A DNA stretch of 44,200 bases from an uncultured Flavobacteriaceae bacterium. Lineage in GTDB: Bacteria; Bacteroidota; Bacteroidia; Flavobacteriales; Flavobacteriaceae. Below, piece after piece: positions 5,320 to 26,036 of this stretch (the stretch's first letter is position 1; every line of letters starts with the position of its first letter). The translations under genes and the position numbers were made by a program. The stretch is taken from positions 1-44,200 of the forward strand of contig CALKFR010000018.1 in the NCBI GenBank assembly GCA_938084555.1. Direction: 5' to 3'. A model generated the notes under the pieces. The model ran no database searches and was not told the origin of the DNA. It saw only the letters and a program-made list of their open reading frames with translations.

Positions 5320-5709
5320 ATGACTGTTTTTGAAACAAAATACATAGTTAAACCGGCTCACATAGACGAGCTTCATCATGTAAATAATGTAGTGTATCTC
5401 CAATGGATTCAAGACATAGCAAATTTACATTGGACACAATTAAAAAAAGGGGTAGACACTTCTGCTTATGTTTGGGTAGTGATTAGACATGAAATAGATT
5501 ATGTTGGTCAAGCGCTATTAGGAGATACTATTACTGCTAAAACATGGGTAGGAAAAACAGGTGGAATACGATCTATTCGTTATGTAGAATTTTACAAAAA
5601 CAACAAGCCTATTGTAAAAGCCCAAACTACCTTTTGTTTGGTAAATGCAAAAACCTTTAAACCTACTCGAATAACTGATCAAATTTTAATGATGTTAGCC
5701 CCTAAATAA
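5320..5709 (+). CDS. Acyl-CoA thioesterase, hotdog fold (4HBT/YbgC-like)
   Basis: 129 residues, the usual size for a single hotdog domain. The N-terminal active-site block reads HIDELHHVNNVVYLQW (14-29), with Asp16, His20, Asn22 and Tyr26 matching the 4-hydroxybenzoyl-CoA thioesterase pattern. A central GDTITAKTWVGK strand follows at about 65-76. It should cleave acyl-CoA or acyl-ACP thioesters in the cytoplasm; chain length cannot be predicted. The DEAD-box helicase gene begins 34 bases later with its own promoter element, so any link between the two is positional. Confidence 0.88.
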   Translation: MTVFETKYIVKPAHIDELHHVNNVVYLQWIQDIANLHWTQLKKGVDTSAYVWVVIRHEIDYVGQALLGDTITAKTWVGKTGGIRSIRYVEFYKNNKPIVKAQTTFCLVNAKTFKPTRITDQILMMLAPK

Positions 5710-5712
5710 CTG

Positions 5713-5720
5713 TACCTTTG
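5713..5720 (+). promoter_or_regulatory. -7 promoter element (TACCTTTG) for the first DEAD-box helicase
   Basis: TACCTTTG matches TAnnTTTG and lies 23 bases before the helicase ATG at 5744. Identical bases are found before the second helicase gene at 12087-12094. Confidence 0.5.
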
Positions 5721-5743
5721 CTTTTCTGAAATTTAAGTTAATT

Positions 5744-6862
5744 ATGAGCACATTTGCTAGTTTAGGCGTAAAAATACCATTCATACAATCCATTAAAGAA
5801 TTAGGGATAAATACCCCTTCTGAAATTCAAGAAAAAACCATCCCAATTTTATTAGACAAAAGAACAGACTTTGTTGGGCTGGCTCAAACAGGAACTGGTA
5901 AAACAGCTGCTTTTGGTTTGCCAATTGTTCAGCAGATAAATTCAAAAAATACTGCTGTTCAGGCGTTAATATTATCACCTACAAGAGAGTTAGTACAACA
6001 AATTAAAAAACAACTTTTTAAATACACCAAGTATTATGAAGAAAAGGTGTTTGTAGAAGCCGTTTATGGTGGAGAAAAAATAGAGAAACAAATACATAAT
6101 TTACAGAGAACTACTCATATAATTGTGGCTACTCCAGGAAGATTAATAGATTTAATAGAGCGCGGAGAGGTTCATTTAAAAGAAATTACAACGCTAGTGT
6201 TAGATGAGGCCGACGAAATGTTAAGCATGGGGTTTAAACAAGATTTAAATAGAATTTTAAAATATACTTCAGGTCAAAGAAATACTTGGTTATTTTCTGC
6301 AACCATGCCAGAAGAAATTCAAAGAATTATAAAAACGTATATGGATGCCAATGCACCTCGTGTAGCAATAAATAGAAATGCTACAGTAAATTCTAATATT
6401 AGCCATCAATTTGTTAAAACTTCTATCAAAGAAAAAACAAATACCATTATTCGTTTTTTAGAATCTAAAGAGCACTCCCGTGGAATTATTTTTTGTAGAA
6501 CTAAAGCAGGTACTCAAAATTTAAACAAACTCCTCCAAGAAGAAGGTTTTTCTATTGGTGCCTTAGAAGGAGACATGCAACAAAAAGAGCGCGACAAAGT
6601 AATGCGTGCATTTAAGAACGAAAGTTTACAATATTTAATCTCTACAGATGTTTCTGCTAGAGGAATAGATATAAGAGATTTAGGATTTGTAATTCACCAT
6701 CAATTACCAGATCAATTAGACTATTACACACATAGAAGTGGTCGAACTGCAAGAGCAGGTAAAAAGGGAATTTCAATAGCTTTAATTCTTCCAAATGAAC
6801 TTCAGCGAATTCATGAAATAGAAAAAGAATTGAATATTAAATTTACAGAAACTAACTTCTAG
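5744..6862 (+). CDS. DEAD-box ATP-dependent RNA helicase, short form
   Basis: 372 residues consisting of little more than the two RecA-like domains. Motifs in order: Q-motif Gln29 (GINTPSEIQ), Walker A AQTGTGKT (47-54), PTREL (79-83), TPGR (130-133), DEAD (154-157), SAT (185-187), then in domain 2 STDVSARGIDI and HRSGRTARAG near the C-terminus. It lacks the long basic tail of CsdA or RhlE types. It should unwind short RNA duplexes in ribosome assembly or RNA turnover. Its stop abuts the convergent membrane-protein gene at 6863. The subfamily cannot be set by eye. Confidence 0.94.
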   Translation: MSTFASLGVKIPFIQSIKELGINTPSEIQEKTIPILLDKRTDFVGLAQTGTGKTAAFGLPIVQQINSKNTAVQALILSPTRELVQQIKKQLFKYTKYYEEKVFVEAVYGGEKIEKQIHNLQRTTHIIVATPGRLIDLIERGEVHLKEITTLVLDEADEMLSMGFKQDLNRILKYTSGQRNTWLFSATMPEEIQRIIKTYMDANAPRVAINRNATVNSNISHQFVKTSIKEKTNTIIRFLESKEHSRGIIFCRTKAGTQNLNKLLQEEGFSIGALEGDMQQKERDKVMRAFKNESLQYLISTDVSARGIDIRDLGFVIHHQLPDQLDYYTHRSGRTARAGKKGISIALILPNELQRIHEIEKELNIKFTETNF

Positions 6863-7297
6863 TTAAGACAACCACCTATGCTCAGTTGCTTTTTTTGAAT
6901 ACCAGATTAAATAGCCTCCAATAGCAATAATCATGAGCGGCATGAGCAGACCTAGTGGGCCGTAATTATCTGTATTTTCATCTAATAGCAGACCATAAGT
7001 CATCTGAGTAACAATTCCTAAAAATGATAGAATAAAGAAAGTTGAAGCAATTTTTTTTCTAAACAATAATAGAAAAGCACCTGAGCTTCCAGAAAACACT
7101 GCAATAGCAAATGCGGCTGTTACCCATGCAGGAACATCTTGATAAATAGCTTGTTGTTCTTTGGGCAAAGTGGCCAATATCTCATCGGTCATAAATGCTT
7201 GAGTTAAATAATTAAATACTCCCATTAGATTCCAAAAAAGTGCCATAGAACTAATAATCCAAAATAGATTACTAGGTTTTCTTAAGTAACTCACCAT
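6863..7297 (-). CDS. Small four-helix membrane protein of unknown function
   Basis: 144 residues with about four hydrophobic segments (roughly 10-32, 58-80, 82-103 and 113-132) and a short hydrophilic loop between the first two (MTDEILATLPKEQQAIYQDVP). Flavobacteria often encode such proteins without known function. It lies tail-to-tail with the DEAD-box gene with no bases between the stops. I see no catalytic motif. Confidence 0.7.
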   Translation of the reverse strand: MVSYLRKPSNLFWIISSMALFWNLMGVFNYLTQAFMTDEILATLPKEQQAIYQDVPAWVTAAFAIAVFSGSSGAFLLLFRKKIASTFFILSFLGIVTQMTYGLLLDENTDNYGPLGLLMPLMIIAIGGYLIWYSKKATEHRWLS

Positions 7298-7374
7298 GAT
7301 GTTAAAGTTTTAATAAATTCTTCTTTAAAATTAGACAAAAAATAATAAATCAAGTTATGACATCTTAAAAATGG

Positions 7375-7382
7375 TATTTTTG
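7375..7382 (+). promoter_or_regulatory. -7 promoter element (TATTTTTG) for the TonB-dependent receptor
   Basis: TATTTTTG matches TAnnTTTG, 26 bases before the ATG at 7409. No clear TTG box is visible upstream. Confidence 0.4.
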
Positions 7383-7408
7383 TTGCCTTAATAGTTAATT
7401 ATACCTCA

Positions 7409-9769
7409 ATGACTTTTAAATCAAAATACATAACCTTGTTTGTTCTTTTTCTGGTTATTTCAAGCTTTTCGTTGGCTCAAGTAAAAACTAGCATTAGAGG
7501 GAGTGTTGTAGATGAGAAAGGAGCTCCAATATTTGCAGCATCACTATATTTAAACAATAATCAAGGAACCTTTTCTGAAGAAGATGGGACTTTTCAAATT
7601 TCAAATGTTGTTCCTGGTTCGTACAATTTAACGGCTAGTTTTTTAGGATATGACTCACAGACTAAATTTAATATTATTGTTAAATCTAAAGGAAATAGAG
7701 CATTTAATTTTATTTTAATTGAAGCCTCAGAGTCTTTGGAAGAAGTAGTTATTTCTAATAAAAACAAAATTAGTAGACCTAAAGAAACGCCTTTGTCTAC
7801 TCAATCATTATCTGCAGTAGAAATAGCTACCTATCCAGGAGGAAATAATGATGTGGTTCAAGTAGCCCAATCATTACCTGGAGTTTCTCCTTCTGTTGGA
7901 GGTTTTAGAAATGATCTAATTATCCGTGGTGGTGCACCTAATGAGACAGTGTATTATTTAGATGGGGTAGAGGTACCAAATATCAACCACTTTGCCACAC
8001 AAGGAAGTGCTGGAGGACCTGTAGGACTATTAAATGTATCTTTTATAAATGATGTAACCTTATCTACATCAGCATTTGGTGCTCAATATGATAATCCTTT
8101 ATCTGGTGTGCTTCAATTTAAACAACGTGATGGAAATAAAGAGCGTTTTAATACAAACATAAGGGTGAGTGCAACTGATGCAGCCTTTACTTTTGAGGGT
8201 CCGTTATTTAAGAGCAATAAAAAAGCAAGCAATACGAGCTTTTTACTTTCTGTAAGAAGGAGCTATTTACAAGCTTTATTCAAATTGATTGGCTTACCTA
8301 TTAGACCAGATTACTGGGATTATCAATATAAACTAACACATAAGATAGATGAATATAACAACTTGTATTTCATTGGTTTAGGATCTATAGATGATTTTAG
8401 TGTTGAGGCACCTGATGACTACGATGAAGAGGCTCAAGCTGTTTTAGAACAAGCACCATTTATAAAACAAAAAACAAACTCAATAGGGGTTACATGGAGG
8501 AAAAGGTTTAAAGACGGTTCTGGTTACATGGAAACTACTTTGAGTAATAATCGATTAGAAAATATATTTACGAGCTACTTAGATCCAGAAAATGAAACAG
8601 GGATTATTTTTAGAAACGATGCCGTAGAATCTGAGACAAAACTTAGATATCAGCTTACCAAATTTATAAATAATTGGAAAATTACTGGTGGTTTTAATAC
8701 CCAACATTCTTTCTATAAGAATAATACCACCAATACTACCGATGAAATTTTTTATACTACAGAGATAGACTTTATTAAATATGGTCTATTTGCAAATGCT
8801 ACACGCTCACTTTTAAATGATAAATTAGATGTTTCTATTGGATTTAGAATGGATGATGACAGTTTTACAACCTCTAATAACTTGATTTCAAATTTTTCGC
8901 CAAGACTTTCTTTGTCTTATGAGTTTCAGGAAAACTGGCGTATTAGTGCTACTGCAGGACGTTACTTTAAAATTACTCCATATACAATTTTAGGGTTTAG
9001 AGATCCAACAGGAAATCTTACAAACCAAGACAGTGATTATACTCAAAGTGATCATTATGTAATAGGGGTGCAACATTATTTAAATCCAGCTGCAAGTATA
9101 TCTTTAGAAGGTTTTTATAAACGATATTCAGACTATCCAGTATCTGTATTAGATCAAGTTTCTTTAGCCAATAAAGGAGCAGATTTTGAAGTGTTAGGAA
9201 ATGAAGATGTTGAAACTGTAGGAAAGGGTAGAAGTTATGGTCTAGAATTTCAATACCAACAAAAACTCTTAAATAACTTTTATAGTATTTTCTCTTACAC
9301 CTATTTCTTTAGCGAATTTACAGGTTTTGAAACGAACACATATATACCTTCTGTATGGGATAGTAGACATTTGGTTTCTTTTGTTGGAGGATATAAATTA
9401 AAAAGGAATTGGGAAATTAGTTCTAGATATCGATTTGCAGGAACAACACCCTACGTTCCAACTAATCTTGAAGCAACATTAGTTTCCTATCCAGAAATAA
9501 TATTAGATTACTCACGTTTAGGAGAAGAAAAATTAGAAACGTTTAGTCAATTAGACATTCGAGTAGATAAAAAGTGGAATTATAATCAATTTAGTTTGAA
9601 CATTTTTTTTGAAGTTCAAAATGTTCTTGGCCAAAGTATCCCTAGACCAAATGAATATGGGTTATCAAGAGATATGAATGGTAATTTAATTACTCCTCTT
9701 AGCCTATCGCAAATTAACCAAGATACAAGTACATCTATACCCAGTATTGGTATTGTGGTAGATTTTTAA
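7409..9769 (+). CDS. TonB-dependent outer-membrane receptor with carboxypeptidase-like N-domain
   Basis: 786 residues. Signal peptide 1-23 (ending SLAQ), then a carboxypeptidase regulatory-like beta domain (about 28-115, RGSVVDEKGAPIFAASLYL), then the plug (about 130-245, with IIRGGAPNETVYYLDGVEVP) and a 22-strand-type barrel ending in a terminal Phe. It should import a ligand across the outer membrane using TonB energy. No SusD-type partner follows, so it is more like a siderophore, metal or small-molecule receptor than a glycan SusC; the ligand is not readable. It is convergent with the haloperoxidase-type gene, 10 bases away. Confidence 0.93.
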   Translation: MTFKSKYITLFVLFLVISSFSLAQVKTSIRGSVVDEKGAPIFAASLYLNNNQGTFSEEDGTFQISNVVPGSYNLTASFLGYDSQTKFNIIVKSKGNRAFNFILIEASESLEEVVISNKNKISRPKETPLSTQSLSAVEIATYPGGNNDVVQVAQSLPGVSPSVGGFRNDLIIRGGAPNETVYYLDGVEVPNINHFATQGSAGGPVGLLNVSFINDVTLSTSAFGAQYDNPLSGVLQFKQRDGNKERFNTNIRVSATDAAFTFEGPLFKSNKKASNTSFLLSVRRSYLQALFKLIGLPIRPDYWDYQYKLTHKIDEYNNLYFIGLGSIDDFSVEAPDDYDEEAQAVLEQAPFIKQKTNSIGVTWRKRFKDGSGYMETTLSNNRLENIFTSYLDPENETGIIFRNDAVESETKLRYQLTKFINNWKITGGFNTQHSFYKNNTTNTTDEIFYTTEIDFIKYGLFANATRSLLNDKLDVSIGFRMDDDSFTTSNNLISNFSPRLSLSYEFQENWRISATAGRYFKITPYTILGFRDPTGNLTNQDSDYTQSDHYVIGVQHYLNPAASISLEGFYKRYSDYPVSVLDQVSLANKGADFEVLGNEDVETVGKGRSYGLEFQYQQKLLNNFYSIFSYTYFFSEFTGFETNTYIPSVWDSRHLVSFVGGYKLKRNWEISSRYRFAGTTPYVPTNLEATLVSYPEIILDYSRLGEEKLETFSQLDIRVDKKWNYNQFSLNIFFEVQNVLGQSIPRPNEYGLSRDMNGNLITPLSLSQINQDTSTSIPSIGIVVDF

Positions 9770-9779
9770 ATAGTTGAAA

Positions 9780-11966
9780 TTATTTGATAATTTTTTTCTG
9801 AAAGATTAAAGAATTAGTATCTGAAACCCCTTTAATAATATACACTCCCTGAGCTAAGTGCTCTAAATTTAAATCTAATATTCCCATATGATTACTTGAA
9901 TTGGAAGTTAAAATTAGCTTTCCTGTAAGTGAATACAATTCTAGTGTAATAGCCTCTAAAAATTGTGTTTTGATATGAAGTGTATTTTGAACCGGAATTG
10001 GATATACCTCTGTATTTAGTTTATTTGTAGTTACTAATGAATTACTCAATGTTCCAGAAAAATATTGTTGTGCCAAATCAAATGATTCTTCACCAATTTT
10101 TTCTCCTATAATTCGCCCCTTGATATCATCTATTGGAGGATGAATTCCACCCCAAATTCTAGACAGACTTGTTTGGTCTGAAGCATCTTGATAGGTTGCC
10201 CATTCTAATGTAAAGGATTCAGAAGGGCCTTCTTCAAAAACTAAAAAATCGTTTTCAATAATATCAAAAGAACCAAGTCCACCAGGGAAAAATTTACTAC
10301 CAGTAATTTTGGTCAAAGATGTTGCTGCTGCTCTAGAAAAAGTTGAATGACCCGAAAGATATCCTGCAAATGGAGGAGTAACAAATGTAGGTCTTTGATA
10401 AGGCCACCAATGAGTTCCTAATATCCAATCTACACCGGCTACATCTGTATCTGGATTATCTATGTAATCTGGGCCTTTCCAAGATTTAACTTTAATTTCA
10501 CCAACATTAACATCGTTTTCTCCAGCCAATACATCTCCAGTAGTAATCACTTCAATTAAATCTGGAATTAAGGGAAGCCCATGAGGGTGAAAACTAGGTA
10601 ATGTATTATCTGAACTTTGACCTCTTGATGCCATATAGCGAATAGCTGATATGGGTCTAATATAATCATAATACCCTTTAATTCCCCATGTATTTACTGC
10701 AGAATCGTGCATTGCACCACCCAATACTAAGTACGATTTTATATCCCATTCTAAATTACCTAAAATAGCTCCTTGTCCACCAAATTTTTTAACGGTTTGG
10801 GGATGGTCACTCACATAGTTTAAAATTGTAAACCAATGCCCAGGAGGGGTTTCAGAGTCTGGTCCGTCTGCCCAAAACTCAGCTAAAACTCGAGCATAGT
10901 CTGATTTTTTTACCATTTGAGGGGTATATGGCATTCCGGTAATAGGGTTTAAATCATGACCACTACCCACAGACCCTCCATCTGAAAAATTATAGAAATT
11001 TTGATACTCTTCAAATGTAGATGGAAAAGAGGATATGTCTGTATTACCTATGGATGCGGGAGATATATCTATTAAACTATTATCTGTTGGATCCAAATGT
11101 GCAGACCATGCAATTACTAAAGCAAAATTCCATTTGTAGGGATCTTCAATTCCATCAGTTGATGAGTTTTGGATAAAATATGGTGCTCCAGGATTATTAT
11201 AAATATAACTTTCAAAACCATCATTTAAAATTGTTAAATCCTCTGATTTTAATGAAAAAGGAGTCACTTTTCCCCATTCTGGACTTAAAAAACTTGGAGT
11301 ATCTAAAGGATAAACATTTCCGCTTTGATCAATAAATACATCAAAAGCTAAAGGTTGCCATCTATTTGGGTTTATTCCAGAGTTATCTTCATATAAATCT
11401 AATACTAAGGCATCATTAGATGACGAGTAATAAAGATTTTCATAATCATTTTGTTCATTGGAGCCATCTTGCAAACCAAAACTTATCATTTCCTGGGCCA
11501 GATAATTACCCAGAGCAGCGTAGGAGTTTGAACTATAGTCTACAGAAATTGAAGCTGGATCATATCCGTAAGATTCAAATAAATTGGTGAAACTATCTAA
11601 AGAACTTGCTGCATTAGGAGAATTCATAAATCTATGTACAAGTAAACGATACATTGCATAACTAATTATTTCATGAATAGCTTCGTTTGAATTTGCTGGA
11701 GTTGAAATACCATTGAAATTACAGGTATACTCTCCAAAAGTTTTACCAAGAAATATGGTTTCTGCATTATCGTTAAATAGGGCCCAAGCATCATACATTA
11801 AAATGGAACTATGAAATAAATTCCTGGCATGTATTGTTGGTCTAGCAAAATCATTTCTTATCGCCTCTAGAAGTTCATCATTCCATTCTCTTGCAACAGA
11901 ATTTTGAGCCTTAGATGAAGTAAGATTAATTAGTAAAAGCAATAAAAAAATTATGATCTGCCTCAA
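9780..11966 (-). CDS. Secreted vanadium-dependent haloperoxidase-type protein (PAP2 superfamily) with T9SS tail
   Basis: 728 residues with a signal peptide (1-21). The vanadate-binding signature of vanadium haloperoxidases is seen in order: Lys430-x6-Arg437-Pro438 (KGYYDYIRP), Ser538-Gly539-His540 (LSGHSTFSR; the usual Pro of PSGH is Leu), and Ser602-Arg603-x5-His609-x3-Asp613 (SRIWGGIHPPIDD). The same residues serve phosphate in PAP2 phosphatases, so halide oxidation against phosphatase activity cannot be decided. A type IX secretion sorting domain follows (about 650-728, starting EVYPIPVQNTLHI). It is thus predicted to be released or surface-anchored. A -7 promoter element is at 11984-11991. 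Confidence 0.85.
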   Translation of the reverse strand: MRQIIIFLLLLLINLTSSKAQNSVAREWNDELLEAIRNDFARPTIHARNLFHSSILMYDAWALFNDNAETIFLGKTFGEYTCNFNGISTPANSNEAIHEIISYAMYRLLVHRFMNSPNAASSLDSFTNLFESYGYDPASISVDYSSNSYAALGNYLAQEMISFGLQDGSNEQNDYENLYYSSSNDALVLDLYEDNSGINPNRWQPLAFDVFIDQSGNVYPLDTPSFLSPEWGKVTPFSLKSEDLTILNDGFESYIYNNPGAPYFIQNSSTDGIEDPYKWNFALVIAWSAHLDPTDNSLIDISPASIGNTDISSFPSTFEEYQNFYNFSDGGSVGSGHDLNPITGMPYTPQMVKKSDYARVLAEFWADGPDSETPPGHWFTILNYVSDHPQTVKKFGGQGAILGNLEWDIKSYLVLGGAMHDSAVNTWGIKGYYDYIRPISAIRYMASRGQSSDNTLPSFHPHGLPLIPDLIEVITTGDVLAGENDVNVGEIKVKSWKGPDYIDNPDTDVAGVDWILGTHWWPYQRPTFVTPPFAGYLSGHSTFSRAAATSLTKITGSKFFPGGLGSFDIIENDFLVFEEGPSESFTLEWATYQDASDQTSLSRIWGGIHPPIDDIKGRIIGEKIGEESFDLAQQYFSGTLSNSLVTTNKLNTEVYPIPVQNTLHIKTQFLEAITLELYSLTGKLILTSNSSNHMGILDLNLEHLAQGVYIIKGVSDTNSLIFQKKIIK

Positions 11967-20977: not shown

Positions 20978-21388
20978 TTAATCTTCTTTTACTACTTGAT
21001 TCATTTCCATTTCGTGGTCATACTGACAACATCCCGGTAGGTTGTTATAAGCTTCAAGATTCCCTAAAACTTTTTCTGTATCATAACCAGATGCTGAAAT
21101 TGCGTTGTGAATGGATAATTCATTGATATTTAAACTATCATAGGAAACCAAGATTGTTTTTTGGTCAATATTCCAAGTAGCTGACGAAACACCATCTAAA
21201 CTATTAGCTGCTTTTTCTATAGTAGACTTACACATCCCACAATTGCCTCTAACACCAAATGAAATTTCTTTGATTGCTATGTCTTTAGAAATTTCTTTCG
21301 TTGTAGAAGTATTATTTTTTGATGATGTATTACAACTTGTTAAACTAATTGCTAGAAGAAAAATGGTGCTCAAGATTATTTTTTTCAT
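20978..21388 (-). CDS. Heavy-metal-associated (HMA) domain lipoprotein with extra metal-ligand tail
   Basis: 136 residues. Lipoprotein signal with lipid Cys19 (LTSC), a Thr/Ser/Lys linker, then an HMA ferredoxin-like domain at about 39-107. The metal-binding loop GNCGMC (Cys50 and Cys53) is typical of CopZ/Atx1-type copper proteins, and the second helix-strand pattern ends ISASGYDTEKV. A C-terminal tail adds GCCQYDHEMEMN (Cys120, Cys121, His125, Met127, Met129), a further possible Cu(I) or soft-metal site. It is predicted to sit on the periplasmic side of a membrane and bind copper or a similar ion. It shares a strand with a DoxX-like gene 32 bases downstream. Confidence 0.85.
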   Translation of the reverse strand: MKKIILSTIFLLAISLTSCNTSSKNNTSTTKEISKDIAIKEISFGVRGNCGMCKSTIEKAANSLDGVSSATWNIDQKTILVSYDSLNINELSIHNAISASGYDTEKVLGNLEAYNNLPGCCQYDHEMEMNQVVKED

Positions 21389-22682: not shown

Positions 22683-23468
22683 ATGAAATTCCTAAAAACT
22701 ATTTTTAAAATTCATCTATTTTCAATTTTAATACTATGTACTCTAGGGTGTTCTGGAGACGAAAGTTCTTCTATTATAGATGATGATGAAGTAATTCCTA
22801 TAACAAATTATGATATTACTCCATTATTGAGTAAATTTAATAGTACAGGGATGACTATTGAAATTAATGCGAATAGTGTAGTTTTTAATACTAATGATCT
22901 ACCAGACCATAAATCACCTTATTATCTTGATACCGAATGGGAAAGTGAATTATATGAACCTTATAATGGAACAAATCCTCAATTCAATTTAAACCCTAAT
23001 AGAATAGCTGAGCAAAATATCACATTTACAATTCCTCTTTTTCCCGAAGAAGCCTCAAATCATAGAGCAACAAATTTAGGTCCCATAGGGATAGCTAGAA
23101 ATGGCGTAGTTTTCTTTAATCAATATGCAGCAGGAAACAGTCCTTTAACAAATGAAATAAATTCTTTTGATCAATATCTTGGTCACCCTGCTGGTATGGG
23201 AAATTACCATTATCATGTTGAACCAACATATCTTACTGAACAGTTTGGCAATAATGTTTTTCTAGGATTATTAGCAGATGGATTTCCTGTATATGGACCC
23301 TTTGAAAATGGGAGTGAAGTTACCAATAATGATCTTGACGAATTTCATGGACATCTAGGGGCAACAGTAGATTTCCCTGATGGAATTTATCATTATCATG
23401 TCACTAGCCAAGACCCTTATATTAATGGTAATGGTTATTTTGGAACACCAGGTAATATTTCTCAATAA
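22683..23468 (+). CDS. YHYH-domain lipoprotein
   Basis: 261 residues. Lipoprotein signal with lipid Cys23 followed by Ser-Gly-Asp-Glu-Ser-Ser. The mature part is a YHYH domain: the two name-giving motifs are at Tyr175-His178 (GNYHYHVEP) and Tyr236-His239 (GIYHYHVTS), with the conserved GLLADGFPVYGPFENG between them. The paired His-rich motifs look suited to binding a metal, but the family function is not established. It is the first gene of a tight operon: 2 bases to the MORN protein, then a SCO1 copper protein and a sulfatase. The acidic residues after Cys23 hint at surface exposure. Confidence 0.88.
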   Translation: MKFLKTIFKIHLFSILILCTLGCSGDESSSIIDDDEVIPITNYDITPLLSKFNSTGMTIEINANSVVFNTNDLPDHKSPYYLDTEWESELYEPYNGTNPQFNLNPNRIAEQNITFTIPLFPEEASNHRATNLGPIGIARNGVVFFNQYAAGNSPLTNEINSFDQYLGHPAGMGNYHYHVEPTYLTEQFGNNVFLGLLADGFPVYGPFENGSEVTNNDLDEFHGHLGATVDFPDGIYHYHVTSQDPYINGNGYFGTPGNISQ

Positions 23469-23470
23469 CA

Positions 23471-24043
23471 ATGTTTTCAAAATATAAATTAATAGGTATA
23501 GTATTATTTCTAATTAGTTGTTCAAATATTAATCATTACCCTATACAAAGTGTTGTTGCTAATGATCCAAATTTTAAATTAAACAATGGGATATTAAAAC
23601 TAAATAATATACCTTTTTCAGGTTTTACCTTTGAATTATATTCTAGTGGAAAACTGAAGAGCAAAAAGCAATTTTTAAATGGGCGCAAACATGGGTATGA
23701 AAAACACTGGTTTTTAAATGATTCCTTATCAACTTTAAGATATTATAAAAATGGTATAAAAATTGGAATTCATCAATCATGGTGGGAAAACCGACAACAA
23801 AAATTTGTGTATCATTTTAATGATAATGGAAAATATAATGGATCAGTTAAGGAATGGTATCCAGATGGTCAACTTGCCAAAGATTTTAATTTTATTGATG
23901 GAGTAGAAGATGGGGCACAAAAACTATTTAAACTTAATGGATCGATTAAAGCCAACTATACTGTGATTAATGAAGAACGTTTTGGCTTAATAGGCTTAAA
24001 GAAGTGTTATACTGTAATTTCTGGTAAAAATGAAATTCAATGA
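23471..24043 (+). CDS. MORN-type repeat lipoprotein (YwqK-like)
   Basis: 190 residues with lipid Cys17 (LISCSN) and no acidic residues after it, so probably periplasm-facing. The mature part carries about four or five MORN-variant repeats of the form Y-x-S/N-G-K-L-x-x-x-x-x-F-x-N-G-x-x-H-G (SSGKLKSKKQFLNGRKHGYE, KNGIKIGIHQSWW, DNGKYNGSVKEWYPDGQLAKD). Such proteins are often labelled antitoxin-like, but nothing here supports that; a binding or scaffold role is more likely. It sits 2 bases after the YHYH gene and overlaps the SCO1 gene by 4 bases (ATGA), so it is translationally coupled to both. Confidence 0.82.
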   Translation: MFSKYKLIGIVLFLISCSNINHYPIQSVVANDPNFKLNNGILKLNNIPFSGFTFELYSSGKLKSKKQFLNGRKHGYEKHWFLNDSLSTLRYYKNGIKIGIHQSWWENRQQKFVYHFNDNGKYNGSVKEWYPDGQLAKDFNFIDGVEDGAQKLFKLNGSIKANYTVINEERFGLIGLKKCYTVISGKNEIQ

Positions 24044-24699
24044 AAAATCTTTTAATTATTTTTCTTTTTATGGTATTTAATTCTTGCAATAAAGGATTGA
24101 AAAAAGACCCAAATACAGATAAATTACCCTATTTTATTTCATCTGATTTTACACCGAGATGGTATACACATTCAAGAGAAATTAAAGGAAAACATAAAAT
24201 TCCAAATTTTTCTTTTTTGAATCAAAATGGAGATACAATTACTAATGAAACTTATAAAAATAAGATTTATGTTGCTGATTTTTTCTTTACATCTTGCCCT
24301 GGTATATGCCCAAAATTAACAAAAAACATGGGGGTCATCCAAGAAAGATATAAAAATGACAAAGATGTTTTATTATTGTCACATACAGTAATGCCCTGGA
24401 CAGATTCTATTCCAGTTTTGAAGGCTTATGCTAACAGAAATAATATAAATGACAAAAAGTGGAATTTAGTAACAGGGGATAAAAATAAATTATACAGTAT
24501 GGCTAGAGATGGATATTTTGCAGATGAAGATTTTGTAAAAACCAAAGATGTAAGTCAATTTATTCATACTGAAAACTTCATATTAGTAGATGGTCAAGGT
24601 TTTATAAGAGGTGTGTTTAATGGAACAATTCCTATTGATATTAAAAGATTAATTAGACATATTGAAATCCTTAAAAAGGAAGAGATCATAATTCATTAA
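24040..24699 (+). CDS. SCO1/SenC-family copper-binding thioredoxin-like lipoprotein
   Basis: 219 residues. Lipid Cys16 (FNSCNK) without acidic residues after it suggests periplasmic placement. The thioredoxin-like fold shows the SCO copper-binding set: Cys86-x3-Cys90 (TSCPGICP) and the distant His176 (SQFIHTENF). SCO proteins deliver Cu(I) to cytochrome oxidase Cu-A sites or act as thiol reductases. Here no oxidase gene is near; instead the gene sits inside an operon with YHYH, MORN and sulfatase genes, overlapping the MORN gene by ATGA. A copper-delivery or redox role for one of these partners is an inference. Confidence 0.93.
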   Translation: MKNLLIIFLFMVFNSCNKGLKKDPNTDKLPYFISSDFTPRWYTHSREIKGKHKIPNFSFLNQNGDTITNETYKNKIYVADFFFTSCPGICPKLTKNMGVIQERYKNDKDVLLLSHTVMPWTDSIPVLKAYANRNNINDKKWNLVTGDKNKLYSMARDGYFADEDFVKTKDVSQFIHTENFILVDGQGFIRGVFNGTIPIDIKRLIRHIEILKKEEIIIH

Positions 24700-24713
24700 T
24701 AATATATTTAAAA

Positions 24714-26036
24714 ATGAAAATAAATAAAAATTTAATAAAAACATTCTTTATTTTTTCAATCATAACTTTATTCATTGCTTGTAAGAAAGATGATGATACT
24801 ATTCAGATAGATGAAAGTGAAGAGGATATCGTTAACGCTCAGCCTAATATCTTATTTATTCTGGCTGATGATATGGGGAAAGATGCTACATTTGGTTTCT
24901 CTGAAGGAAGTATAAAACCAAATACTCCAAATTTGAATGCTTTAAAGAATTCAGGGTTATCATTTAATAATTTTTGGGTTAATCCAACTTGTACACCTAC
25001 AAGAGGTTCAATTATTACAGGTAAATATGGTTTTAGAACTGGTTTAAAATGGGCAGGTGATCAAATTACAACCTCAGAAAAGATTTTACAGAAATTTATC
25101 AAAGAAGAAACCAACAATAAATATGTTTCAGCTATAGTTGGTAAATGGCATTTATCAGGGAATAACCAATCCACTAATCCAGAAAATTTTGGATTAGATT
25201 ATTATGCAGGAATTCTATCAGGTGCAGTTCAAGATTATTATAACTGGAGAATGAGTGAAGATGGTTCATCATCCAATGAAACAACATATGCTACAGAAGA
25301 GCTGACTAATAAGGCAATTGGTTGGATAGGTAGTCAAGAAAAACCTTGGTTTATGTGGTTGGCATATAACGCTCCACATACGCCTTTTCATATACCACCA
25401 ACTAATATGCATTCACAAGGAGCACTTCCGGAATACAGAGCAGGATTAGATGCACGTCCTTACTATTTTGCAGCCATTGAAGCTATGGATTTTCAAATTG
25501 GAAGATTAATTGAATCAATTCCTGAAAATAAATTAGAAAATACAATTATAATTTTTATAGGTGACAATGGAACTCCCAATCAAGTAGCACAGTCTCCATA
25601 TACTAACCAAACTGTCAAGGGAACATTATATCAAGGTGGTATAAATACCCCTATGTTTATTTCAGGTTACGGTGTCAATAGAACAGGTATGGATAATAAT
25701 TTGATAGTTAGTACAGACTTATATTCAACAATTGCTAATTTATGTGGAGTGCAAGGGGCTCAAATTTATGATAGCAAAAGTTTTATTCCATTACTAACAT
25801 CAAATACTACTATAAGAGATTTTCAATATTCTGAGATGGATAATGGAACAAATGATAGTTGGGCTATTCGTAATTTAAATTATAAATTAATTGTTAATGC
25901 CAATGGAAATGAAGAAATGTATGATATGATTTCAGATCCATATGAACAGAATAATCTTTTATTGTCCAATTTATCTAATGCTCAACAATCAGCTAAAAAT
26001 GTATTGGAATCAGAGCTATCTGAAATTAGACAATAA
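24714..26036 (+). CDS. Type I sulfatase lipoprotein
   Basis: 440 residues. Lipid Cys23 is followed by Lys-Lys-Asp-Asp-Asp, an acidic signature like that of surface-exposed flavobacterial lipoproteins. The sulfatase fold begins at residue 44 (PNILFILADDMG, metal ligands Asp52 and Asp53). Cys93 in CTPTRGS (C-x-P-x-R) is the residue converted to formylglycine. KWHL near residue 148 and GDNG near 284 complete the metal and sulfate site. It should remove sulfate esters from an unknown substrate. Being the last gene of the YHYH-MORN-SCO operon, 14 bases after SCO, is unusual: no SusC/SusD pair, glycoside hydrolase or sulfatase-maturase gene is nearby. Confidence 0.93.
   Translation: MKINKNLIKTFFIFSIITLFIACKKDDDTIQIDESEEDIVNAQPNILFILADDMGKDATFGFSEGSIKPNTPNLNALKNSGLSFNNFWVNPTCTPTRGSIITGKYGFRTGLKWAGDQITTSEKILQKFIKEETNNKYVSAIVGKWHLSGNNQSTNPENFGLDYYAGILSGAVQDYYNWRMSEDGSSSNETTYATEELTNKAIGWIGSQEKPWFMWLAYNAPHTPFHIPPTNMHSQGALPEYRAGLDARPYYFAAIEAMDFQIGRLIESIPENKLENTIIIFIGDNGTPNQVAQSPYTNQTVKGTLYQGGINTPMFISGYGVNRTGMDNNLIVSTDLYSTIANLCGVQGAQIYDSKSFIPLLTSNTTIRDFQYSEMDNGTNDSWAIRNLNYKLIVNANGNEEMYDMISDPYEQNNLLLSNLSNAQQSAKNVLESELSEIRQ

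Follow-up and report, generated by a model that had tools for sequence, protein, structure and literature searches.

A near-constant YHYH, MORN and SCO lipoprotein gene trio with a facultative sulfatase partner in Bacteroidota

A co-inherited gene trio

In many Bacteroidota, the genes for a YHYH protein, a MORN-repeat protein and an SCO1/SenC-type protein form an old co-inherited, co-encoded unit, hereafter the trio, to which a type I sulfatase is a facultative partner. The MORN gene, given no role in the earlier note on this DNA, is a core member of the unit and the obligate partner of trio-type YHYH. The trio and a sulfatase gene lie together in the window, the 44,200-nucleotide stretch of a contig from an uncultured Flavobacteriaceae bacterium analysed here (Table 1). 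The operon of four plus-strand lipoprotein genes previously described was reproduced exactly, with gaps of 2, -4 and 14 bp, and the lipoprotein signals were borne out in family alignments, in which the lipid Cys is present in 88/88 YHYH, 80/82 MORN, 81/82 SCO and 24/24 sulfatase proteins. The operon is separated from the nearest listed ORFs by 289 bp on its upstream side and by 319 bp on its downstream side. Generic scans for promoter and terminator signals at the operon gave no excess over shuffles, and spacing and conservation suggest that the four genes are co-transcribed. No mobile genes were found among the window proteins scanned. Profile searches assigned the YHYH (78.9 bits, cut-off 25), SCO (82.2 bits, cut-off 22.8) and sulfatase (150.8 bits, cut-off 25) proteins to their families; the MORN protein scored 27.8 bits, just below the cut-off of 29.6, and a relative at locus L037 reached 40.1 bits with the same profile.

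Table 1. Genes and sequence features of the four-gene operon (positions in the window)
Feature	Position	Strand	Remarks
YHYH lipoprotein, trio type	22683..23468	+	261 aa; PF14240
YHYH lipid Cys23	22749-22751	+	followed by SGDESSS, acidic
First YHYH motif, Y175-H178	23205..23216	+	part of the universal YHYH site, together with H168 and Asp163/199/219
Second YHYH motif, Y236-H239	23388..23399	+	forms with H224 a second His cluster, characteristic of trio-type proteins
MORN-repeat lipoprotein	23471..24043	+	190 aa; MORN_2 (PF07661)
MORN C-terminal Cys179	24005..24007	+	just beyond the last predicted strand, where model confidence drops
SCO1/SenC-type lipoprotein	24040..24699	+	219 aa; PF02630
SCO lipid Cys16			followed by NKGLK
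SCO CxxxC (C86, C90)	24295..24309	+	
SCO distant His176	24565-24567	+	
Type I sulfatase lipoprotein, YHYH-partnered clade	24714..26036	+	440 aa; PF00884
Sulfatase lipid Cys23			followed by KKDDD
Sulfatase formylglycine motif CTPTR (C93-R97)	24990..25004	+	

YHYH proteins are widespread in Bacteroidota, and the arrangement is by no means confined to this genome. Among 80 related loci kept from 126 relatives, one of them a near-copy (L003, 99% identical), the full trio was found at 74; four others are cut by contig ends, and two true exceptions (L073 and L081) carry YHYH without MORN and SCO despite room at the locus. A second trio is present at seven loci and the order YHYH-SCO-MORN at three. 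Gene overlaps in this set are overestimated because ORFs were taken from the first start codon, and the smallest YHYH-MORN gap (-2207), at a locus with two trios, is probably an artefact. When YHYH loci from sampled genomes, the window included, were split into classes at 150 bits of a custom profile, MORN adjoined trio-type YHYH at 45/45 loci and SCO at 43/45, the two misses being contig ends. Across 249 genomes of the family, with the trio-type cut set at 190 bits after a gap in the scores had appeared (the next place scored 127 bits), this MORN subfamily and trio-type YHYH co-occur in the same 56 genomes (counts ignoring kinship), and a MORN gene lies directly downstream of YHYH at all 61 places. 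In one genome (G178), YHYH and MORN stand together and a trio-like SCO is on a separate contig, and one trio is carried on a Persicobacter plasmid. These linkage counts rule out a chance neighbourhood. No description of the trio was found in the open-access papers searched.

Of the four-gene neighbourhood proposed earlier, YHYH, MORN and SCO thus proved near-constant but the sulfatase facultative. One YHYH subtype nearly always adjoins SCO, which favours, for the trio type, the earlier suggestion that SCO serves YHYH in a copper or thiol envelope pathway; however, none of 14 YHYH loci of other types in the sampled genomes had SCO or MORN, so the suggestion fails for YHYH in general, and YHYH as such appears independent of SCO. 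Four plasmid regions with YHYH outside Bacteroidota (Loktanella, Bradyrhizobium, Limimaricola and Tsukamurella) likewise had no adjoining SCO or MORN by annotation or profiles.

The facultative sulfatase

The trio-linked sulfatases form one clade (SH-aLRT 100), whose members also adjoin other YHYH types without MORN or SCO. As expected of type I enzymes that need a formylglycine Cys, C93, P95 and R97 are present in 24/24 sequences. The single anaerobic-type maturase model searched (TIGR03942) had no match in the window's genome, which is 62.84% complete and carries further sulfatases on contigs C39, C77, C78 and C98. A sulfatase stands beside the trio at 10 of the 45 sampled loci. In general it is most commonly found upstream of YHYH; sulfatases located solely downstream of SCO, as in the window, are less frequent, being seen among the 80 loci only at the near-copy L003 and at L004, and elsewhere in G603, loci L240 and L264. 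At L022, L025 and L037 the sulfatase stands between two trios. Genomes with a clade sulfatase also have YHYH in 27 of 34 cases, against about 10 expected when kinship is ignored, and 20 of 35 sulfatase-clade loci adjoin neither YHYH nor a trio.

In line with the earlier placement of this sulfatase outside any polysaccharide locus, its clade seems to keep clear of such loci. No SusC/SusD or glycoside hydrolase family was found among the 19 neighbours scanned at 16 of the 20 YHYH-free loci, nor any SusD or glycoside hydrolase in the 30 scanned of 42 window ORFs of at least 100 aa. By its tree and neighbours, the clade is unlikely to consist of ordinary polysaccharide-locus sulfatases. One TonB receptor (7409-9769) lies in the window, 13 kb from the operon, and at L350 one neighbour of a YHYH-free clade sulfatase is a second sulfatase. 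The nearest solved sulfatases include the S1 carrageenan sulfatases (PDB 6b0j and 9fo1), with which the trio sulfatase shares the Sulfatase domain and the formylglycine Cys motif, but it differs from them in its separate clade, its facultative place by YHYH and the polysaccharide-free surroundings seen for the clade.

The carrageenan match also speaks for a possible, if somewhat unlikely, explanation in which sulfated marine glycans are the joint target of the sulfatase and of YHYH, the latter as a zinc-dependent hydrolase or a lectin, while MORN and SCO merely help to assemble the small lipoprotein form. It would account for the pairing of the clade with several YHYH types whether or not MORN and SCO are present, for the type-9 sorting domain, above the cut-off, in one partner of each of two distant YHYH-sulfatase pairs without MORN and SCO, and for the sulfate-transfer genes that adjoin two other YHYH genes; the co-occurrence of phage YHYH domains with tail and lectin domains is also in its favour. 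Against it stand the neighbour scans above and the commonness of sulfatase-free trios.

Metal and thiol sites of the trio proteins

The window YHYH protein contains the universal D/H/YHxH core as invariant columns. Residues of the universal site, Y177 excepted, are invariant across 20 diverse YHYH proteins, and the first YHYH motif occurs in 88/88 trio and 52/52 other YHYH proteins. The second His cluster (HHH) is kept in 87/88 trio proteins versus 13 of the 52 others (14 of which were not parsed), and many His of YHYH are conserved. An AF2 model of the window protein (pLDDT 86) had no match of Z >= 2 in a PDB fold search (best E 0.85), and no solved relative was found by sequence either; predicted structures of viral YHYH proteins do match it. 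YHYH proteins have been reported in phages and diatoms, and the domain of jumbo phages and cyanophages was predicted to be a Zn-dependent hydrolase with a three-His/Asp zinc site (PMC7824862); in phages, YHYH domains are found together with tail and lectin domains. The trio protein has this His-His-His/Asp site in common with the phage domain, but differs from it in standing alone as a lipoprotein, in its second His cluster and in its MORN and SCO partners. YHYH is probably a metalloprotein, and its fold is unsolved.

The copper-type site claimed for SCO was confirmed, with C86, C90 and H176 each present in 82/82 sequences. Its best PDB matches are 4hde, 1on4 and 1xzo, presumably all of Bacillus origin. 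With these SCO1/SenC copper chaperones it shares PF02630, the CxxxC and distant His, and a lipoprotein anchor, but it is encoded with YHYH and MORN, and a tree sets the trio SCOs apart, with weak support, from the majority of the SCOs that these genomes encode elsewhere. Twelve trio genomes each have 2 to 5 PF02630 places, which makes it less likely that the trio SCO merely helps a respiratory oxidase; the window's genome has a further SCO adjoining FeoA-FeoB.

SCO homologues can be thiol reductases instead of copper chaperones. A thiol-redox module, in which SCO is a disulfide reductase with the MORN tail Cys as its client and YHYH binds zinc at the universal site independently of copper, is an explanation that we consider unlikely. 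The MORN protein, modelled by AF2 as repeated beta strands (pLDDT 88.9), keeps Cys179, located past the last predicted strand, in 81/82 sequences, and this is the sole Cys after residue 45 in 63/82; the published zinc-site prediction also agrees with the conserved YHYH columns. However, a single MORN Cys requires an external partner, the copper-type His of SCO is kept throughout, and the CnrX-like sensor of relatives (see below) suggests metals. YHYH has no Cys past residue 45 in 79/88 trio-type proteins, which is in keeping with such a module; in the explanation preferred below, it implies that SCO would act on YHYH through metal and not through a disulfide.

Compartments, regulation and a candidate envelope module

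In the surface lipoprotein export signal (LES), two D/E come after a Lys or another polar residue between positions +2 and +6, with a C-X-K-(D/E)2 form (PMC5080379). Both the window sulfatase (CKKDDD, which fits C-X-K-(D/E)2) and the window YHYH (CSGDES) follow this rule. As the lipobox finder sometimes picked the wrong Cys, positions +2 to +6 were counted on alignment columns. Their net charge is acidic in 73/88 YHYH and 17/24 sulfatase proteins and basic in 53/81 SCO proteins, and two or more acidic residues occur in only 58/88 YHYH and 11/24 sulfatase proteins, compared with 14/80 MORN and 11/81 SCO proteins, so that the surface signals are a statistical trend. The type-9 sorting domain in one partner of the distant YHYH-sulfatase pairs likewise speaks for a surface location. 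Because YHYH and, less clearly, the sulfatase have surface-export-like signals and SCO does not, the four proteins are unlikely to face a single compartment.

Upstream of many trios, an ECF sigma factor, a small protein and a Spy/CnrX-like periplasmic protein are encoded in a row. Spy/CnrX-like genes occur at 34 of the 80 related loci, and at 31 of these YHYH follows at most four genes later. The encoded proteins have conserved His and Cys, and their profile matches Spy, NccX and CnrX. The CnrYXH/NccYXH gene organisation is a metal-sensing ECF system. The trio cassettes resemble it in gene succession but differ in that no Pfam family matches the small protein and the cassette is absent from the window ORFs near the operon. 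In relatives that carry the cassette, the trio is probably stress-responsive.

Such a sensor would also suit metal homeostasis, with YHYH as a surface copper binder or sequesterer, SCO as the periplasmic handler and the sulfatase as a passenger, as would the conserved His of YHYH and an HMA-domain lipoprotein found by profile search near the operon in the window. We hold this to be very unlikely, as a passenger would not show so specific a link as the sulfatase does, and the 17 same-strand flanking genes scanned at other loci encode no copper pump or multicopper oxidase; a MauG peroxidase domain and a CBB3-type cytochrome c domain are encoded by one of them each.

The explanation that we prefer, plausible though short of probable, is that the trio and sulfatase form a conserved two-compartment envelope module, for which we infer the metal, the substrate and the direction of transfer. 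MORN and SCO would remain in the periplasm and mature or guard YHYH: SCO, its copper/thiol site intact, may deliver copper to trio-type YHYH or maintain its competence, probably at the second His cluster, while the MORN lipoprotein may be a scaffold with its tail Cys as a thiol partner. YHYH would then be transferred to the cell surface along with the sulfatase, where both may act jointly on a sulfated extracellular compound; in relatives with the ECF cassette, metal or envelope stress would probably induce the module. Against this explanation stand the 13 non-trio YHYH proteins that keep the second His cluster, the SCO-free loci of other YHYH types, the exceptions L073, L081 and G178, the capacity of SCO homologues to be thiol reductases, the 20 clade sulfatase loci away from YHYH and the lack of an ECF cassette at the window. 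The bolder proposal that trio-type YHYH is a surface copper enzyme of new fold, loaded in the periplasm by a dedicated pair of SCO and MORN before export, acting with its own sulfatase on a sulfated extracellular compound and, in many relatives, induced by a metal-sensing sigma factor, seems improbable.

Through its near-obligate MORN and SCO partners and a dedicated sulfatase clade, one branch of the YHYH family gains a strong, testable functional context, and trio-type YHYH could be an SCO client other than cytochrome oxidase.

Linkage of the YHYH, MORN and SCO genes

ORF calling recovered the four genes of the operon at the positions given in the earlier note, with gaps of 2, −4 and 14 bases, and their products matched the YHYH (PF14240), SCO1-SenC and Sulfatase profiles, the MORN_2 match being slightly below the cut-off. 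In family alignments, the lipoprotein Cys is conserved in each of the four proteins. The window YHYH shares 99% identity with one from a MAG recorded as uncultured Flavobacterium sp.

With the window YHYH as query, genome contigs yielded 126 relatives, and the 80 loci kept were scanned with all four window proteins; by record title, the related loci include ones from Flavobacteriaceae, Cytophagales and Chitinophagales. The neighbourhood that the earlier note had proposed to count across Bacteroidota proved recurrent, with YHYH, MORN and SCO together on one strand in 74 of the 80 loci, ordered as in the window in 71 and with SCO before MORN in three. Of the rest, four stop at a contig end and two (L073 and L081) have no partners despite room. 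Two trios were found in each of seven loci. In a wider search, PF14240 matched in 23 of 198 genomes sampled from the phylum, and the profile of trio-type YHYH, the subtype encoded with MORN and SCO, exceeded 200 bits in 16 of 295 class genomes and 190 bits in 56 of 249 family genomes. Among the 59 loci fetched from the class and family searches, 45 were trio-type, of which all 45 had MORN and 43 had SCO, the two misses being cut by contig ends; neither MORN nor SCO was found in the 14 lower-scoring loci.

In the reverse search of the 249 family genomes with the MORN alignment (E ≤ 1e-35), the 56 genomes matched were identical to those having trio-type YHYH. All 61 MORN places lay directly downstream of trio-type YHYH, at ≤180 bp for 60 of them and at 689 bp for the remaining one; a MORN match accompanied 62 of the 64 YHYH places. 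SCO adjoins YHYH in nine of the first ten trio-type genomes, the window's included; in genome G178, YHYH-MORN has no adjoining SCO, and an SCO grouping with the trio SCOs sits on a separate contig. Co-inheritance and physical linkage of the trio genes are the surest statement from these data. No description of the trio was found in an open-access literature search, nor in the accessible parts of PMC7824862, PMC7029224, PMC11992049, PMC5080379 and PMC11213822.

A Spy/CnrX-like gene was present in 34 of the 80 loci. In 30 of these, the genes before it encode an ECF sigma factor and a small protein labelled anti-sigma by position only, and in 31, YHYH is among the next four same-strand genes. A profile of nine Spy/CnrX-like proteins matched Spy (1.6e-6), NccX (4.2e-4) and CnrX listed as CnrR (0.0021). 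Across the Spy/CnrX-like proteins of the 34 loci, a His (31/34) and a Cys (33/34) are conserved. This cassette is absent from the window. Genes for EF-hand, CotH (13/80 loci), VTC, DUF4956 and DUF2490 proteins also recur near trios; the literature search found no joint mention of CotH, the VTC domain and DUF4956.

A sulfatase clade sometimes beside YHYH

In a quick tree, trio-linked sulfatases (25 rows) formed one clade (SH-aLRT 100) apart from 30 other sulfatases, and the formylglycine Cys, Pro and Arg were present in 24/24. The sulfatase of L016, 4.6 kb from its trio, fell outside this clade. Sulfatase matches (E ≤ 1e-75) occurred in 34 of 249 genomes, and 27 of these 34 had a YHYH match, compared with 74 of all 249 genomes (Fisher p = 1.2e-10, without correction for relatedness). 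Among the 35 sulfatase-clade loci, defined by at least 500 bits in the clade's own profile, 15 sulfatases lie within 150 bp, on the same strand, of YHYH or a trio SCO; five of them (L266, L278, L279, L280 and L288) adjoin other YHYH types, with no MORN or SCO seen. YHYH also adjoins a sulfatase in 3 of 16 deeper loci. The other 20 of the 35 clade loci are not so placed, L285 among them having YHYH on the opposite strand. Of these 20, 16 loci were fetched and 19 neighbours scanned; besides a MauG peroxidase and another sulfatase, these comprised peptidases, reductases, hydrolases and housekeeping proteins, with no SusC/SusD or glycoside hydrolase among them. The trio's MORN subfamily was found only after trio-type YHYH; members of the sulfatase clade accompany YHYH whether or not MORN and SCO are present. 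With the sulfate-transfer genes of L080 and L213, the sulfate theme extends past the sulfatase. Several further sulfatases are clustered on contigs C39 and C78 of the window's genome.

Features in the window and in related loci
Locus	Coordinates	Strand	Feature
Window	22683-26036	+	YHYH, MORN, SCO and sulfatase operon
Window	20978-21388	-	HMA-domain, CxxC lipoprotein-like protein; 1.3 kb upstream of operon
Window	9780-11966	-	T9SS sorting domain and DUF6851; vanadium chloroperoxidase second domain match just below cut-off
L080	12125-13786		Arylsulfotransferase with type-9 sorting domain just after trio; no sulfatase adjoins YHYH
L213	375-1484		Sulfotransferase adjoining other-type YHYH; no sulfatase adjoins that YHYH
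L008	12191-13534		MauG-type di-haem cytochrome c peroxidase adjoining trio
L351	4950-6170		MauG-type di-haem cytochrome c peroxidase adjoining same-clade sulfatase
L082	1975-7745		Cassette of ECF, small protein and Spy/CnrX-like genes, with EF-hand, CotH kinase, VTC, DUF4956 and DUF2490, upstream of second-type YHYH trio
L037	4575-6477		As L082
L119 (window's genome, contig C8)	7565-10671		FeoA and FeoB directly after SCO; unexpected link of SCO to ferrous iron transport
L115 (Loktanella plasmid)	5415-8837		Two PEBP-type genes between two YHYH genes; perhaps a YHYH partner outside Bacteroidota
L126	8451-9817		EF-hand gene adjoining, or weak EF-hand match fused to, canonical YHYH next to trio
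L012	8668-9774		As L126

Putative metal sites and predicted location

The CxxxC motif and His are kept in 82/82 SCOs. A quick tree built from 56 SCOs needs only two label changes to separate trio from other SCOs; its join of the trio SCO groups is not strongly supported. The sole other SCO place in the window's genome, which is 62.84% complete, adjoins FeoA and FeoB. In the MORN model, beta strands follow one another at high confidence (mean pLDDT 88.9), and confidence drops after them. Cys179 of MORN, kept in 81/82, sits in that lower-confidence part, and thiol chemistry on this Cys is one chief rival to copper transfer from SCO.

Across 20 diverse YHYH proteins, the invariant residues include D163, H168, Y175, H176, H178, D199 and D219, which fits the three-His/Asp metal site predicted for YHYH in the accessible part of PMC7824862. 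All three residues of a second His cluster, H224 with H237 and H239 of the second YHYH motif, are present in 87 of 88 trio proteins versus 13 of 52 others, 14 of the latter being unparsed for it. No Cys follows residue 45 in 79 of 88 trio-type proteins. The AlphaFold2 model of YHYH (pLDDT 86, pTM 0.79) had no match in the PDB searched by fold and by sequence, and its significant named matches among viral models were YHYH proteins. A zinc-based glycan role is the other chief rival; in the preferred, albeit unproven, step, the second His cluster would receive copper.

According to the accessible part of PMC5080379, acidic residues after the lipid Cys can send Bacteroidota lipoproteins to the surface. 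In alignment columns, positions +2 to +6 are net acidic in YHYH (73/88) and sulfatase (17/24), net basic in SCO (53/81) and mixed in MORN (21 acidic, 24 basic, n = 80); at least two acids occur there in 58/88 YHYH, 11/24 sulfatase, 14/80 MORN and 11/81 SCO proteins. From the lipid Cys onwards, the window proteins have CSGDES (YHYH), CKKDDD (sulfatase), CNKGLK (SCO) and CSNINH (MORN). Among distant YHYH-sulfatase pairs lacking MORN and SCO, the YHYH of L301 has a type-9 sorting domain above the cut-off, and no match was found in that of L300, which is truncated at the edge of its locus; for the sulfatases of these pairs, the match is above the cut-off in L300, below it in L301 and absent in L297. 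The simplest reading is a two-arm arrangement, in which SCO and MORN would act in the periplasm and YHYH and the sulfatase at the surface. YHYH would be the joint between the two arms, and copper may be passed to its second His cluster.
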